A stretch of DNA of 30,362 nucleotides from Bacteroidaceae bacterium (GTDB lineage: Bacteria; Bacteroidota; Bacteroidia; Bacteroidales; Bacteroidaceae), in contig JAFZKR010000039.1 in the NCBI GenBank assembly GCA_017551845.1, positions 1-30,362 of the forward strand, written 5' to 3'. The notes under the pieces are model-generated. The model was not told the origin of the DNA. It ran no database searches and saw nothing but the letters and a program-made list of their open reading frames with translations. Position 1 is the stretch's first letter. Every line of letters begins with the position of its first letter. Positions 5,916-14,690 of this stretch are shown here, one piece after another. The position numbers and the translations under genes are program-made.

Positions 5916-7217
5916 ATGAAGGAAAAAGTAATAACTATTTGGGGTGTCATTACTCTTGCAACGGTGATAATAGTAACTGGTTGTGGTCTTAATGGCGACA
6001 ACAAAGATCCTGGAATGATAATTGATCCTGTTTACCTTCCTGAAACTCTGGAATTGACACGTGCTGAACTTGAAATGATTAATCACAGCAATGATTTCGC
6101 GTTTAACCTGTTCCGGCAGATAGTCAGTTCAAGAAGTTCCAATGAGAGTTTGAAAACCAAAAGTATAATAGTTTCTCCGATAAGTATAACCTTTGCTCTT
6201 GGCATGCTTAACAATGGTGCGGGCGGAGATACTCAAGCTCAGATTAATAAAGTATTAGGATTCAGCGATACTGGAGCCGACGGTATCAACGCATTCTGCT
6301 ATAAGATGCTGAACAGAGAGTCAGTACTTGATTCGCTTACAAAGGTTATGATAGCTAATACCATCTACATGAACAAAGGCTATGAACTTAAGCCCGCATT
6401 CTTACAGATAGCCAACAGATATTACAACGCCTATCCCGAGACACGTGATTTTCATGACGGAAAGACAATGAATGTCATAAATCAATGGGCTAGTGACAAT
6501 ACAGATAAAATGGTACAGAAGGTACTTGATGAGGACTCCTTTAATCCCAATTCAGCCAGTTACCTATTGAACGCTATCTATTTCAAAGGTGTATGGACCA
6601 AGAAGTTTGATAAAGAAAGCACAAGGGAAAAGGATTTTTACCATTCAGGTAGTACTCATGAGAAAAATAAACTCCCGATGATGCACATGATTGAGGAATT
6701 TGAATATGCTGAGTCTGATGGTTACCAGGCCCTGCGTCTTCCATACGGAAATGGATCATTCCTGATGACAGCTATTTTGCCGATAGCAAAGAAAGGAGAG
6801 AGTATAAATATGTTACCATCTGTTCCTTCGACGGATATATGGAAGCATATTAATGAGCAGATGAGCACAATAACGGTTGATTTGACTTTTCCTCGCATTG
6901 AGACTGATACAGACATCAATCTTAAGGAAATTATGTCTGATCTCGGTATGCCGGATGCATTTGATGGGGATAGAGCTGATTTCAGTAACTTCTGCAACGA
7001 GCCAGTTTATATCGATCTCATGAAGCAGGTCGCTAAGATAAAACTAGATGAGGAGGGTACGGAGGCAGCAGCAGTGACCGTCATCGGCATGCGGAAGAAT
7101 TCAGTCGGAGATTCACCTGATTTTGTTACTTTCTGTGCCAATCATCCGTTCCTTTATGTAATAAGTGAACAAAACACAGGGGCTATTCTTTTCATAGGTC
7201 AATATACTGGTAATTGA
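5916..7217 (+). CDS. Serpin-family protease inhibitor lipoprotein (copy 1)
   Basis: The protein has 433 residues. The N-terminus has a hydrophobic stretch ending VTGC with Cys23 as lipidation site, so it is probably membrane-anchored and exposed to the periplasm or surface. The rest is a full-length serpin: NDFAFNLFRQI start, IIVSPISITFALGMLNNGA, LLNAIYFKGVWTKKFD, LPYGNGSFLM, and the C-terminal HPFLYVISEQNTGAILFIGQ. The reactive-loop hinge DEEGTEAAAVTV (from about 378) has the small residues needed for loop insertion, so inhibition is likely. Aligned with alpha-1-antitrypsin the P1-P1' bond would be Asn395-Ser396, with Arg393-Lys394 just before; the true bond is uncertain. Bacteroidales serpins such as miropin of Tannerella inhibit host and bacterial proteases. 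A close paralogue lies at 11541. The YpfJ-type metallopeptidase follows 53 bases downstream. Confidence 0.93.
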   Translation: MKEKVITIWGVITLATVIIVTGCGLNGDNKDPGMIIDPVYLPETLELTRAELEMINHSNDFAFNLFRQIVSSRSSNESLKTKSIIVSPISITFALGMLNNGAGGDTQAQINKVLGFSDTGADGINAFCYKMLNRESVLDSLTKVMIANTIYMNKGYELKPAFLQIANRYYNAYPETRDFHDGKTMNVINQWASDNTDKMVQKVLDEDSFNPNSASYLLNAIYFKGVWTKKFDKESTREKDFYHSGSTHEKNKLPMMHMIEEFEYAESDGYQALRLPYGNGSFLMTAILPIAKKGESINMLPSVPSTDIWKHINEQMSTITVDLTFPRIETDTDINLKEIMSDLGMPDAFDGDRADFSNFCNEPVYIDLMKQVAKIKLDEEGTEAAAVTVIGMRKNSVGDSPDFVTFCANHPFLYVISEQNTGAILFIGQYTGN

Positions 7218-9401: not shown

Positions 9402-10631
9402 ATGGATTTGATAAAAAGATTTTTTTGCTACACAGCTGTAGATACGCAATCCGACGAGAATTCGGAAACTGTTCCCAGCACTGCCAAGCAGATGAATCTG
9501 GCTCGCCTGCTGAAGTCCGAGCTGGAGAGTATGGGACTTGAGGATGTGTTTATGGATGAAATGGGGTATGTATATGCCACTCTTCCTGCAAACACGGATA
9601 AGAAAGTACCCACAATTGGTTTTATTTCCCATATGGACACCAGTCCGTCAATGAGCGGAAAAGATGTTAAACCTCGTATTGTAGAAAAATATAACGGTGA
9701 TGACATACTCCTTAACAAGGAGCAGAATGTTGTGCTTTCACCGGATATTTTCCCTGAACTGCTCGCCCACAAGGGCGAAGACTTGATTGTAACCGACGGC
9801 ACGACTCTTCTTGGGGCTGATGACAAAGCCGGTATTGCCGAAATCATTACTGCTGTGGAGTATCTGCAGCAGCATCCCGAGATCAAGCACGGTAAGGTGC
9901 GCGTGGGCTTCAACCCCGATGAGGAGATTGGCATGGGTGCCGCCCACTTTGATGTGAAGCGTTTTGGGTGCGAATTCGGTTATACCGTTGACGGCGGTGA
10001 GGTAGGAGAGATGGAGTATGAAAATTTCAACGCCGCCAAGGCCGTGTTCAAGATTCAGGGTCTTGAGGTTCATCCGGGTTACGCCAAAGGCAAGATGGTA
10101 AACGCATCGCTGTTGGCTGCAGAACTGATACAGATGTTCCCCGCAAACGAGACTCCTGGCACAACCTGTGGTTATGAAGGTTTCTACCACATTGTAGGTC
10201 TGTCTGGTGAAGTTGACCACGCGCAGGCTGTTTTCATTATCCGTGACCATGACCGTGCCAAGTTTGAGGCCCGCAAGGAGTTCGCCAAGGCAGTGGCCGA
10301 TAAGATGAACGCCAAATACGGCAAGGGTACCGTGGTGGCCGAGGTTACAGACCAGTATTACAACATGAAGGAGCAGATTGACAAGGTTCCGTTTGTGGTG
10401 GATATAGCATGTGAGGCTATGAAACTGGCAGGAGTCAATCCCGTCAAGGTTCCCATCCGCGGCGGTACAGACGGCGCACAGCTCTCATTCAAGGGACTGC
10501 CTTGTCCCAACCTATTTGCTGGCGGCATGAATTTCCACGGCCGCTATGAGTGGGTTCCCGTACAGAGCATGGAGAAGGCCATGATGACGGTTGTCCGCAT
10601 CATCGAACTTGTAGCAAAGCGTGACTGGTAA
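9402..10631 (+). CDS. pepT: Peptidase T (tripeptide aminopeptidase)
   Basis: This 409-residue protein is the standard length for PepT, a cytosolic zinc aminopeptidase of the M20 family that removes the N-terminal residue from tripeptides. All M20 landmarks are present in order: [14 protein letters not shown] (first zinc His and Asp), [13 protein letters not shown] (bridging Asp), [11 protein letters not shown] (catalytic and metal Glu pair), [19 protein letters not shown] (dimerisation-domain entry), [11 protein letters not shown], and [33 protein letters not shown] (late His ligand and substrate contacts). Its promoter at 9342-9369 is divergent from the nitroreductase. The gene ends in a 32-base tail-to-tail overlap with the dehydrogenase gene, and its terminator lies inside that gene at 10691-10735. 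Confidence 0.97.
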
Positions 10632-11454: not shown

Positions 11455-11524
11455 CAATTTTCAAAAAATATTGTTTCATCATGCAAGATTTATCCTGTTG
11501 ATGGATTTATTATGCAGAAACATT

Positions 11525-11532
11525 TATTTTTG
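11525..11532 (+). promoter_or_regulatory. Promoter -7 element of serpin 2 operon, near-leaderless
   Basis: TATTTTTG matches TAnnTTTG and is 8 bases before the ATG at 11541, nearly the same geometry as at serpin 1. A TTG at 11498-11500 is a possible -33 element although the spacing (24 bases) is long. Confidence 0.55.
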
Positions 11533-11540
11533 TAGGTGTT

Positions 11541-12845
11541 ATGAAGAAAAAAGATAAAAGAACAGCCATTGTCTTAACCTTATTATCGGCATTATTGACG
11601 GGTTGCAGTCTTGATGCTGATGGCATTAAGGAGCCGGAACCCGAAAATGAACCGGTAATATCACTTGTTGGCAATTTGGAACTTACTCCGGCGGAACAGG
11701 AGTTGGTAAACCATAGCAATGAATTTGCCTTTAATCTGTTCAGGCAGATTCCCGATTCTGCATTGAATTACCTGAAAAGCAAAATAGTGTCGCCTTTAAG
11801 CATTACATACGCCCTTGGTATGCTCAATAACGGTGCAAACGGCAATACCCAGGCACAAATAAATGAGGTATTGGGATTTGGAGACACAGGAGCCGACAGC
11901 ATCAATGAATTCTGCTATAAGATGATAAAAACGGCACCAGCGCTTGACACACTGACCAAGGTGTTGATAGCCAATAACATCTATATGAACAAAGGCTACA
12001 CACTCAAAGACGGTTTTATAAAGAAAGCCAAGTCTTTCTATAACGCTGAGCCCGAAACCCGCGTTTTTTATGACGGAAAGACTATGGATGTCATAAACAA
12101 ATGGGCAAGCGACCATACCGAGCGGATGATTGACAGAATACTTGATGAGGATTCTTTTGATCCCCAGACCGTCAGCTATCTACTTAATGCAATATACTTT
12201 AAGGGCAGTTGGACTTATAAGTTCGATAAGTCTCAAACAAAGGTGGAGGAGTTTATATTACCGGATGATAAAGATGGCCTGTTATCCTGTGAAATGATGC
12301 AAATGCATTCGGAAATAGATTATGCGGAAACGGACCAATACCAGGCTGTCAGCCTGCCATATGGCAACGGCTCATTCCAAATGACGGTATTATTGCACAA
12401 GATCAAACAGGTGGAACCGCCATTACCTATTGGGGAACTGGATATAGCCCCCAAAGTTCCTACTCTTGAACAATGGCAGGAATTGAACCGCAACATGAGT
12501 CAACGTGAGGTAATGCTCAAACTGCCCCGTTTTGAGACCGAATCAAACATAGATCTGATTGAAATCATGAAACGGTTGGGTATGACCGATGCATTTAATG
12601 TACATGATGCCGATTTCAGCAACTTCTGTAATGTACCTGTCTATATAGGCCTTATGAAACAGGTTGCCAAGATTAAGCTTGACGAAGAAGGTACTGAAGC
12701 TGCGGCTGCTACTGTTATAGGAATCGAAAAGACATCGGAATTACCCAGTTATACCAAATTCTATGCCAACCGCCCGTTCATCTATGTAATCAGCGAGAAA
12801 AAAACAGGTGCAATCTTCTTTATAGGCCAATACACAGCCCGTTGA
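11541..12845 (+). CDS. Serpin-family protease inhibitor lipoprotein (copy 2)
   Basis: The 434-residue protein has a signal ending LLTGC with Cys22 as lipidation site, then an acidic, Pro/Glu-rich spacer and a complete serpin fold (NEFAFNLFRQI, IVSPLSITYALGMLNNGA, LLNAIYFKGSWTYKFD, RPFIYVISEKKTGAIFFIGQY). It is a clear paralogue of the serpin at 5916, with long shared runs such as LMKQVAKIKLDEEGTEAAA. The hinge DEEGTEAAAATV is of the inhibitory type. By alignment with alpha-1-antitrypsin the scissile bond would be Thr398-Ser399, so the loop (GIEKTSELP) differs from that of copy 1 (GMRKNSVGD), suggesting a different target protease. A lysine-rich 20-residue insert is also seen near the middle (KIKQVEPPLPIGELDIAPK). 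The ECF sigma gene starts three bases after the stop, so it heads an operon. Confidence 0.93.
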   Translation: MKKKDKRTAIVLTLLSALLTGCSLDADGIKEPEPENEPVISLVGNLELTPAEQELVNHSNEFAFNLFRQIPDSALNYLKSKIVSPLSITYALGMLNNGANGNTQAQINEVLGFGDTGADSINEFCYKMIKTAPALDTLTKVLIANNIYMNKGYTLKDGFIKKAKSFYNAEPETRVFYDGKTMDVINKWASDHTERMIDRILDEDSFDPQTVSYLLNAIYFKGSWTYKFDKSQTKVEEFILPDDKDGLLSCEMMQMHSEIDYAETDQYQAVSLPYGNGSFQMTVLLHKIKQVEPPLPIGELDIAPKVPTLEQWQELNRNMSQREVMLKLPRFETESNIDLIEIMKRLGMTDAFNVHDADFSNFCNVPVYIGLMKQVAKIKLDEEGTEAAAATVIGIEKTSELPSYTKFYANRPFIYVISEKKTGAIFFIGQYTAR

Positions 12846-12848
12846 TAC

Positions 12849-13415
12849 GTGACATCTCCGGATAATCATGAACAGCGTTTAGCAAAACGGCTGCAGGATG
12901 GAAATAGGGCGGCCGCAAGGGAGTTTTACGCCCTTTATGCCGATTTCTTGGCTGGTATTTGTGCACGATATATCGTAAATGAGGAGGACCAGAAGGATGT
13001 GTTTCAGGAATCATTCATAAATATTTTCTCCAATATAAGACAATATACATATCGTGGAGAAGGCTCCCTTAAGGCTTGGGCTGCCAGAATAGTAGTGAAT
13101 GAATCGCTCAAGTACATCAGGAGCGGACATCAGCATGAACTCATACCCATAGATATGGATATTGCCGATAAGGAAGAAGACGATCCGCTCATAAACGCTA
13201 TACCTCCCGATGCCATCATGGAGATGCTGAGCCGTCTGCCCATAGGATATCGTACAGTATTCAATCTTTATGTATTTGAAAACAAAAGTCATCAGGAGAT
13301 AGCAGACCTGCTGGGCATCAAGGAGAACAGTTCGGCGTCACAACTGCACAGGGCAAAGAATATGCTTGCCAGGATGATAAAAGAGTATAATGACAAAAAC
13401 AACCCGCGACAATGA
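12849..13415 (+). CDS. ECF-type RNA polymerase sigma factor
   Basis: The product is 188 residues from a GTG at 12849; no ATG is available upstream of the conserved region. Sigma region 2 spans about residues 20-85: REFYALYADFLAGICARYI, then EEDQKDVFQESFINIFSNI with the core-binding D-x-x-Q-E-x-F motif, and YRGEGSLKAWAARIVVNESLKYIR for -10 recognition. Region 4 is at about 120-180: LSRLPIGYRTVFNLYVFENKSHQEIADLLGIKENSSASQLHRAKNML, a helix-turn-helix for the -35. No extra C-terminal domain is present. It starts three bases after serpin 2 and overlaps the next gene by ATGA, so the three genes are almost certainly cotranscribed. The downstream membrane protein is the probable anti-sigma factor. 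Confidence 0.95.
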   Translation: MTSPDNHEQRLAKRLQDGNRAAAREFYALYADFLAGICARYIVNEEDQKDVFQESFINIFSNIRQYTYRGEGSLKAWAARIVVNESLKYIRSGHQHELIPIDMDIADKEEDDPLINAIPPDAIMEMLSRLPIGYRTVFNLYVFENKSHQEIADLLGIKENSSASQLHRAKNMLARMIKEYNDKNNPRQ

Positions 13416-14629
13416 AAGAAGAATGGAGACTTGAAATGCAACAGAAGATGGAAGGCTACAGAAAGCCTGCCCCTGAGTTGTCGTGGAGTGAGATTTATCG
13501 TGTTATGCCAGCTCCACATATCGTTTTACCACTTTGGATAAAGCATACTGTTGCAGCATCTGTTGTACTGCTTATAGCGGGTATCGGCTACAGGTTCCTT
13601 AATGTCAATGATGCTGTGCCTATGCCTGATCTGCCCATTGAAACGATTAAAATTGATGAACTGCAACAGATGGAGCAAGAGCAACCTATCATTGAAAAAG
13701 AGAATCCGGTTTCTGCTCAGTTAGAAAAAGTAAGGCGCAACCAAAGGCTTGTATCATTGGAGACAAAGACTGATGTTGCTCCAGAATATCCTGCAGATTT
13801 AATTGATTCAGAAAATACTTCCGTATCCCAGTCGGTGGCATCGGAATCCGTTGAACAGGCGCCCGCAACAGACGATCAGCAACCCTCTGTTGTCCGCAAA
13901 ACCGAACCGGTTTATCCTAATTTGGATTTACCTCAGCGTAAACGTAAAAAAGAGAGCCGCCTGATGGCTATGGCATATGTTTCAAACTATATGTCCGATA
14001 GCTATAGGTCGGAATCTCACACACAAACTGGTATTACACAGGATATTTCCAGTAGAATCGTTTATCAAGATCCATCTACGGGTCGTGTCTGCGATTTATT
14101 AGATGTAGATTGGGAGGGAGAAATGATTCCGATAACTGTATATGACACTGTTACTACAAAGACAAACACCTTGATCGACCATGAATACAGTCATCATCAG
14201 CCCATCAGATTCGGTTTGATGTTTCTCTATAGGCTCAATGACCATTGGAGCCTGGAGAGTGGACTTTCATATACACGCCTTTTATCGGATATCACTACTA
14301 GGGTTGATGGCCAGGTGACGGCTGTATCCGAACAGCGCCTACACTATATTGGAATACCGCTTAATCTGGGTTATCAGTTCAGGATATACCGGCGTGTGGG
14401 CATGTATGTAAAGGCCGGCGGATCCATAGAAAAGATGTTGAATGCAAGTCCATGGCAATTCTCATTGAATAGTGCAGCTGGAGTCAATTATGAACTGACG
14501 GACAGGTTCAGTCTTTATTTTGAACCTGGTGTGGGTTATTATTTCAATGACGGCAGCAGCATATCAACGCTGTACAAAGATCATCCGCTAAATTACAATC
14601 TCAGCATTGGATTGCGCATCAGTCTTTGA
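13412..14629 (+). CDS. Probable anti-sigma protein fused to an outer-membrane beta-barrel domain
   Basis: The 405-residue protein has three parts. Residues 1-40 form a short charged cytosolic segment (MKEEWRLEMQQKMEGYRKPA, then WSEIYRVMP) of the kind that precedes the membrane helix in Bacteroidetes anti-sigma-like proteins. Residues about 41-63 are one membrane helix (WIKHTVAASVVLLIAGIGYRF). Residues 64-180 are a low-complexity Glu/Gln/Pro/Ser linker. From about 185, and strongly from 254 to 405, alternating strands (RFGLMFLYRLNDHWSLESGL, LHYIGIPLNLGYQFRI, LYFEPGVGYYF, LSIGLRISL) match the PorT-like outer membrane beta-barrel domain. The protein could reach from the inner to the outer membrane. 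It is coupled to the sigma gene (ATGA), which supports an anti-sigma role; that role is inferred. It ends directly at a GGGGAC-core palindromic element. Confidence 0.8.
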   Translation: MKEEWRLEMQQKMEGYRKPAPELSWSEIYRVMPAPHIVLPLWIKHTVAASVVLLIAGIGYRFLNVNDAVPMPDLPIETIKIDELQQMEQEQPIIEKENPVSAQLEKVRRNQRLVSLETKTDVAPEYPADLIDSENTSVSQSVASESVEQAPATDDQQPSVVRKTEPVYPNLDLPQRKRKKESRLMAMAYVSNYMSDSYRSESHTQTGITQDISSRIVYQDPSTGRVCDLLDVDWEGEMIPITVYDTVTTKTNTLIDHEYSHHQPIRFGLMFLYRLNDHWSLESGLSYTRLLSDITTRVDGQVTAVSEQRLHYIGIPLNLGYQFRIYRRVGMYVKAGGSIEKMLNASPWQFSLNSAAGVNYELTDRFSLYFEPGVGYYFNDGSSISTLYKDHPLNYNLSIGLRISL

Positions 14630-14690
14630 ACACATTGGGGACGGTTCTCTGTGTGTTCGCCAACACGCAGAGAACCGTCCCCAATGTGTT
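14629..14690. repeat. Long perfect-type hairpin, REP-like element and bidirectional terminator
   Basis: The arms 14629-14657 and 14662-14690 are 29 bases each with a single mismatch (a G-T wobble), around a four-base loop. The core ATTGGGGACGGTTCTC resembles two other elements in this window. It starts in the stop of the barrel gene and ends in the stop of the convergent Hsp15-like gene, so it fills the entire junction. It probably ends transcription in both directions, although no T-run follows. Confidence 0.85.

Follow-up and report, generated by a model that had tools for sequence, protein, structure and literature searches.

A serpin gene ahead of an ECF sigma factor and a Dma-type anti-sigma candidate in Bacteroidaceae: a predicted envelope-stress operon

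The Dma family of anti-sigma proteins is built from an N-terminal anti-sigma part, a transmembrane helix, a disordered tether and a barrel (PMC13088901), and upon deletion of dma2 its own operon and the neighbouring genes rise most (PMC13088901). Reo was reported to span all five compartments in work on Phocaeicola vulgatus (PMC13114119), and the EcfO-Reo pair, which is induced by toxins and in the gut, has a regulon of lipoproteins such as NigD (PMC9308784, PMC13114119). Here we describe a locus of a related kind in a Bacteroidaceae bacterium (assembly GCA_017551845.1, contig JAFZKR010000039.1, positions 1 to 30,362; this whole stretch of 30,362 nucleotides is called the window hereafter), where the gene of a serpin, named serpin 2, directly precedes those of an extracytoplasmic function (ECF) sigma factor and of a barrel protein. 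We consider it probable, as far as sequence can tell, that the three genes form an autoregulated envelope-stress operon, in which a sigma factor held by a Dma-type protein would drive the serpin-sigma-Dma unit. The operon joins the question of what bacterial serpins are for and how they are controlled to that of the signals and outputs of most Dma systems.

The unit and its predicted proteins

The serpin 2 stop codon (TGA, 12843-12845) is followed by tac and then by the sigma GTG at 12849, leaving a gap of 3 nt, and the sigma stop codon (13413-13415) shares bases with the barrel ATG at 13412 in an ATGA overlap, so that the tight coupling described in the original prediction agrees with the coordinates. 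The further claim that the genes are transcribed as a single unit stands for the junction between serpin 2 and the sigma gene, since 3 nt leave no space for a promoter there; a promoter could still lie inside the serpin 2 gene itself. The unit is flanked on its 5′ side by a predicted ECF-type promoter and on its 3′ side by an uninterrupted 29-bp hairpin (Table 1).

The sigma factor exceeds the Pfam cut-offs of Sigma70_r2 and Sigma70_r4_2 (regions 2 and 4) and, among its best 25 NCBIfam matches, only the sigma70-ECF superfamily exceeds its cut-off. For the barrel protein, PF13505 and PF13568 cover residues 259-380. Its AlphaFold2 model, made with 75 sequences (mean pLDDT 69.5), shows cytoplasmic helices at residues 3-14 and 25-31, a membrane helix at 41-63, a low-confidence stretch at 66-180, which would be a disordered tether of about 115 residues, and a confident barrel at 184-404; Foldseek returned barrels of OmpA and NspA size with target-normalised TM of 0.57-0.64, and P21, S24, W25 and W42 are invariant across the 75 sequences. 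All four parts of the Dma build are present in the model and the gene lies directly downstream of an ECF sigma gene; by this described build, and as modelled, the protein is assigned to the Dma/Reo-type dual membrane-spanning anti-sigma proteins. The trans-envelope anti-sigma build that had been proposed for it is thus borne out by the model together with the family description (PMC13088901). Given this four-part build, the sigma/anti-sigma half of the operon belongs to an already known kind: the anti-sigma idea was right in kind and is already known for the Dma class, and it is the serpin link that appears to be new. The 17 barrel proteins inspected (the window's included, some of them incomplete at the C-terminal end) have a short soluble segment and then a hydrophobic stretch from residue 37-72. 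Possible sigma-Dma fusions of 537-614 aa with a match to the sigma model occur in L020 (6226-7839), L023 (11912-13555) and L141 (2823-4667), a barrel part having been seen by tblastn in just L020 and L023, and these ORFs may resemble Dma3, a sigma-Dma fusion (PMC13088901).

Serpin 2 matches PF00079 over profile positions 2-367 of 370, hence as a full-length domain, with an E-value of 1.5e-92, and a second serpin of the window, serpin 1 at 5916, also matches PF00079, with an E-value of 2.4e-95. Inhibitory serpins have a hinge with Gly at P15, Thr or Ser at P14 and small residues at P12-P9, and the serpin 2 hinge EEGTEAAAAT conforms to this rule. In the 18 main-clade linked serpins (those close to a sigma-Dma pair, see below) the hinge is kept as E(E/Q)G(T/S)EAAA(V/I/A)T and the cleavage region is variable, as would be expected of working inhibitors with differing targets; a hinge of this type was not found in the L171 serpin. 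The lipid anchor claimed for serpin 2 holds as a prediction, given its lipobox LTGC (Cys22), which is followed by SLDADG, that is by Ser and acidic residues. In Bacteroidota lipoproteins, Ser and acidic residues after the Cys are a surface export signal, and the sequence thus suggests that serpin 2 would be placed at the cell surface. By a simple pattern, a lipobox is found in every linked serpin row except L031 (whose serpin was read from an upstream start in this check), mostly with Ser and acidic residues behind it. Single open reading frames (ORFs) of about 840-870 codons encoding tandem double serpins were also observed (L085, L098, L099, L100, L107, L110, L111, L123 and L132).

Table 1. 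Positions of the features of the serpin 2 operon in the window
Feature	Position	Strand	Basis
Predicted ECF-type promoter: -35 TGCAAGATTT (11482-11491), 11-nt spacer, -10 GGATTTATT (11503-11511)	11482-11511	+	Matrix scores
TATTTTTG, possible basal promoter, fits primary-sigma -7 box TAnnTTTG	11525-11532	+	16 nt before serpin 2 start
Serpin 2, 434 aa, predicted lipoprotein (Cys22, codon 11604-11606)	11541-12845	+	PF00079, lipobox
Serpin 2 reactive-centre loop, inhibitory-type hinge EEGTEAAAAT	12684-12773	+	Miropin alignment
ECF sigma factor, 188 aa, GTG start, Das type by context	12849-13415	+	Pfam, NCBIfam
Dma-type anti-sigma candidate	13412-14629	+	AlphaFold2 model (75 sequences), Pfam, barrel like OmpA/NspA
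Probable two-way terminator hairpin, 29 bp	14629-14690	.	Minimum free energy -54.4 kcal/mol, z -11.9

Around the unit, the hairpin is a 29-bp perfect inverted repeat with a GGGGACGGTTCTCTG core that separates the barrel gene from a convergent S4-domain gene; its two arms are the sole copies within the window, and it resembles a terminator or a REP-type palindrome. Upstream of serpin 2 lies pepT (9402-10631), with an SDR gene on the opposite strand between them, and a clade-mate of serpin 2 stands directly behind an apparent pepT end in both L075 and L079, as judged by eye. A neutral zinc metallopeptidase gene (PF04228, 7271-8122) directly follows serpin 1 on the same strand.

Recurrence of the serpin and sigma-Dma neighbourhood

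A genome scan with the barrel alignment gave 51 loci, 14 of which have a same-strand serpin gene in front of the sigma and barrel genes, with barrel identities of 28-49% (best segment). The gap between serpin and sigma gene measures 3-10 nt in 10 of these 14 loci and 64 and 66 nt in two, and in L028 and L029, which share one contig, gaps of 507 and 662 nt hold a gene of 161-163 codons. Eight other loci (L018, L030, L037, L038, L039, L042, L045 and L047) have a NigD-like protein in the slot before the sigma gene; four of these proteins were compared with Pfam, and three are over the NigD cut-offs, with L047 below. In the genome of L018, that of the culturable Prevotella sp. khp7, a serpin shares a contig with the Dma match. 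Most of the named relatives are uncultured members of Prevotella, Prevotellaceae and Bacteroidaceae. According to the source records, seven of the 14 linked loci (six genomes) come from the ruminant forestomach, and since this compartment precedes pancreatic secretion, the proteases met there would be microbial or protozoal rather than host digestive ones.

The neighbourhood was also sampled from the serpin side. The family sample comprised 301 genomes of the family of G007, chosen because it is operon-bearing, and at least 89 of them contain a serpin; 120 regions drawn from the listed matches, short fragments excluded, together with L027 provided 126 serpin ORFs. Among the matches listed, a sigma-Dma pair lies within 4 kb of 14 of these 126 (13 of 125 without L027; L071 and L074 are near-copies), the serpin being upstream in six cases, downstream in five and divergent in three. 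At the order level, where 108 of 247 genomes have a serpin, we took the best-scoring 30 regions plus 40 further down the list, excluding places already covered, and found a sigma-Dma pair near the serpin in 6/30 and 7/40, hence in 13 of 70 loci (5/40 with the regions of the second set cut down to 4.1 kb). Ten of these 13 are divergent and three (L258, L286 and L288) have the serpin upstream on the same strand. Such a pair was near none of the 60 control loci, 30 of peptidase S9 and 30 of nitroreductase (Fisher p = 0.0002, kinship not corrected for; the control loci are shorter, with a median of about 3.5 kb versus 4.1 and 6.1 kb for the serpin loci). The barrel model finds 1 to 11 matching segments per genome (17 genomes), several of which are pieces of one gene, and with so few segments we estimate chance adjacency within a few kb at about 1% or less. 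The recurrence of the gene order in distant genomes is more than chance, and a chance neighbourhood of serpin and sigma-Dma pair is rejected on the basis of the family and order-level samples. The order is conserved beyond close strains, as the original prediction required, both in the barrel loci and in the two serpin samples.

From 76 sigma hits we retained the 64 rows that had a barrel, scored 140 bits or more and were no longer than 300 aa; on the tree of these sigma+barrel rows the serpin label needs 8 changes versus 17.1 in shuffles and falls mostly in one clade, L060/L063 and L171 lying outside it. A FastTree phylogeny of 142 serpin domains groups 28 of them, 18 of these linked, in one clade, which again leaves out the serpins of L060/L063 and L171. 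Because both trees place them elsewhere, the pairing of serpin and sigma-Dma genes probably arose more than once, with the caution that L171 is a long branch and that both trees are quick ones. In L081 the sigma ORF behind the linked serpin (6105-6287) has just 60 codons, and this copy of the operon may therefore be decaying.

A promoter type shared by serpins and sigma genes

Upstream of the linked serpins there is a shared block, first spotted by eye, consisting of TGCAAG(T/A/G)TTT, 10-11 nt, GGATTTATA and then often TAGAA, with an TGCAGTATTT variant in a sub-group, and the same block precedes serpin-free sigma genes (e.g. L004, L005, L009, L010, L013 and L014). A matrix of 27 sites, the window excluded, scores 28.0 at 11482, where the next best site in the window has 9.95 and the maxima of 200 order-3 Markov sequences have a mean of 13.0 and a highest value of 25.4. 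Judged from the -10 box, transcription of serpin 2 would start near 11518. We made a second matrix from 14 sigma-gene sites only and scored it 45-90 nt before the start; of the 21 linked serpins 17 reach 12 bits, as do 9 of the 118 others, for which 0.18 would be expected. Of these nine, two (L086 and L125) are transcribed divergently from a sigma-Dma pair, and relatives are counted among them (L052-L054 and L055/L056). With this promoter type common to sigma genes, unlinked serpins and lipoproteins, it is very probable that the adjacent sigma factor controls serpin 2 and that the two genes are co-transcribed. The regulon membership suggested for serpin 2 is in this way strengthened, its promoter type preceding the sigma gene also where no serpin is linked. 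The same suggestion for serpin 1 had to be given up: with the sigma-gene matrix serpin 2 scores 25.4 bits versus -4.1 for serpin 1, in whose upstream stretch we found a TAnnTTTG box and no ECF-type site.

That box, the -7 consensus of the primary sigma factor (PMC7366714), is present before 13 of the 18 main-clade linked serpins, and in 11 of the 13 it stands 12-16 nt before a start codon (background 0.8% per 30 nt; 135 nt searched). Such a box would allow a basal expression of the serpin.

A strict form of the ECF-type pattern gives 10 hits versus 0 for the reversed pattern in 16 operon-bearing genomes, nine of which have no hit. Six of the ten are before linked serpins, L177, L178 and L179 are before genes that look lipoprotein-like by eye, and L180 has a serpin-like start with no long ORF. 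For a sister pattern, the search of six genomes yielded 10 hits, all within three distant ones (control 0): three before unlinked serpins, two before a sigma gene followed by Dma, two before NigD-like genes (L194 over the NigD_C cut-off, L192 below), one before another lipoprotein-like gene and two without an ORF of 80 aa. The last two (L196 and L197, with the site at 1500 on the - and + strand, respectively) might mark a small RNA or a short peptide, and Rfam gave no match at either. In 17 further genomes, most with a serpin-free Das gene, 16 have serpins, and 9 of 29 scored rows reach 10 bits, the known L002 operon among them; the genome of L013 has an additional serpin-sigma-Dma unit (L207). 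A gene that looks radical-SAM-like by eye follows the lipoprotein-like gene of L177 and precedes the sigma-Dma pair in L021.

Several results weigh against a Dma-controlled serpin. Among the matches listed, 112 of the 126 family-sample serpins are away from any sigma-Dma pair, and 37 of the 51 barrel loci, some at contig ends, have no serpin before the sigma gene. The linked serpins of L001, L029 and L171 stay below 10 bits in the scored interval and that of L024 reaches 10.5, and the 14 sigma-gene sites were picked once the motif had already been seen at serpins. In the 301 family genomes the strict pattern has 11 hits (two in the centre genome) versus 6 for the reversed pattern, which is near noise for unselected genomes. 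Outside the family, 0 of 30 scored order-level serpins reach 10 bits with the Bacteroidaceae matrix. Sigma-Dma pairs are still near some of these 30, and another ECF-like motif, GCAACCTTTT-N12/13-(A/G)TCT, was derived there from 8 order-level sites. On 41 held-out serpins it gives 7 at 8 bits or more versus 0.72 expected and 2 at 14 bits or more versus 0.08, and thus appears moderately enriched in a separate test set; its carriers are the serpins of L238, L239, L247, L249, L250, L256, L257, L260 and L289.

Proposed mechanism and described systems

The gene order and its conservation, the promoter-like site and its sharing with sigma genes, and the predicted anatomy of the proteins are read from the DNA itself. 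From these we infer an active promoter, its recognition by the sigma factor and the following sequence of events. The N-terminal cytoplasmic helices of the Dma-type protein would tie the ECF sigma factor to the inner membrane, and a disturbance of the outer membrane, sensed through barrel and tether as the family suggests, would release the sigma factor. Once free, it would transcribe its own operon, and perhaps a few lipoprotein genes, so that all three products (serpin lipoprotein, sigma factor and inhibitor) would rise together. The serpin would then reach the cell surface or vesicles and trap hostile proteases, and the extra Dma protein would reset the switch.

Other explanations fit part of the data. 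A merely historical or accidental position of the serpin ahead of the sigma gene, with its transcription left to the primary sigma factor, is favoured by the TAnnTTTG box 16 nt before the serpin 2 start and by the lack of a serpin in 37 of 51 related loci; we nevertheless hold this to be most improbable, given that the order is kept over barrel identities of 28-49%, that the pairing is repeated across different orders and clades, and that unlinked serpins have the same promoter type. The serpin could also be a housekeeping part of the switch, shielding Dma or the sigma factor against envelope proteases that the cell itself makes and thereby setting a threshold, instead of a defence against outsiders. 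Its co-transcription in a fixed unit and its possible basal promoter would suit this role, which we think unlikely since unlinked serpins with this promoter type exist and the loop cleavage region differs widely among linked serpins, a variation that many outside targets fit better than one inside target.

A less remote alternative is a protease-sensing loop, in which a protease from outside would cut the exposed barrel loops or the disordered tether of Dma and free the sigma factor, and the serpin would disable that very protease. The recurrent partners are serpins and not random genes (13/70 versus 0/60), the serpins and Dma proteins that pair differ from case to case, as does their gene order, the tether of 115 residues is predicted to be disordered, and expression of miropin correlates with that of gingipain according to a review (PMC8201313). 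However, the signals described for related pairs are antibacterial toxins and envelope stress (PMC9308784), and elsewhere the serpin slot is taken by NigD or other lipoproteins, so that a general stress signal suffices. We regard such a loop as doubtful, and take general outer-membrane damage as the default Dma signal. Equally tentative is its extension to a Bacteroidales class of protease-damage circuits, with Dma as both sensor and cleavage target and a surface serpin that is consumed by the same protease, assembled more than once from different serpins and Dma proteins.

With the autoregulated envelope-stress operon as the preferred reading, the recurrent pairing of serpin and switch suggests that the little-understood bacterial serpins are made on demand upon surface disturbance. 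On this view many serpins of Bacteroidales would be defence proteins induced through Dma systems, and the operon supplies a promoter and a readable output for finding the Dma signal.

In the literature searched, which left supplementary tables and the original Dma1 and EcfO papers outside its scope, we found no link between serpins and Dma-type regulators; the word serpin is not in the main text of PMC13088901, PMC13114119, PMC9308784, PMC12596196 or PMC7366714, and PMC12208373 was rejected as a source for such a link because its serpin passages concern host proteins. Among the closest described systems are Das1-Dma1 and Das2-Dma2 of Bacteroides thetaiotaomicron, where an ECF sigma factor is followed by a four-part anti-sigma protein, but their partners are NigD1 or proteins of unknown function whereas here the partner is a serpin (PMC13088901). 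EcfO-Reo of Bacteroides fragilis and P. vulgatus also joins a sigma factor to a five-compartment anti-sigma protein, and differs in that no serpin is mentioned in the main text of PMC9308784 or PMC13114119. In CirY-CirZ-Spy of P. vulgatus a protective envelope protein is likewise co-transcribed with a sigma/anti-sigma pair, although this protector is a downstream chaperone and ours an upstream serpin (PMC13114119). Serpin 2 itself, a putative inhibitor, can be likened to miropin, a Bacteroidota serpin of Tannerella forsythia (PDB 5ncs; PMC8201313), which aligns over the whole serpin domain and has KTS in the loop in common with it. The serpin would occupy the effector slot held by NigD lipoproteins in the studied Das1 and EcfO systems, and while the sigma/anti-sigma half of the operon is of a known kind, its serpin half is what looks new.

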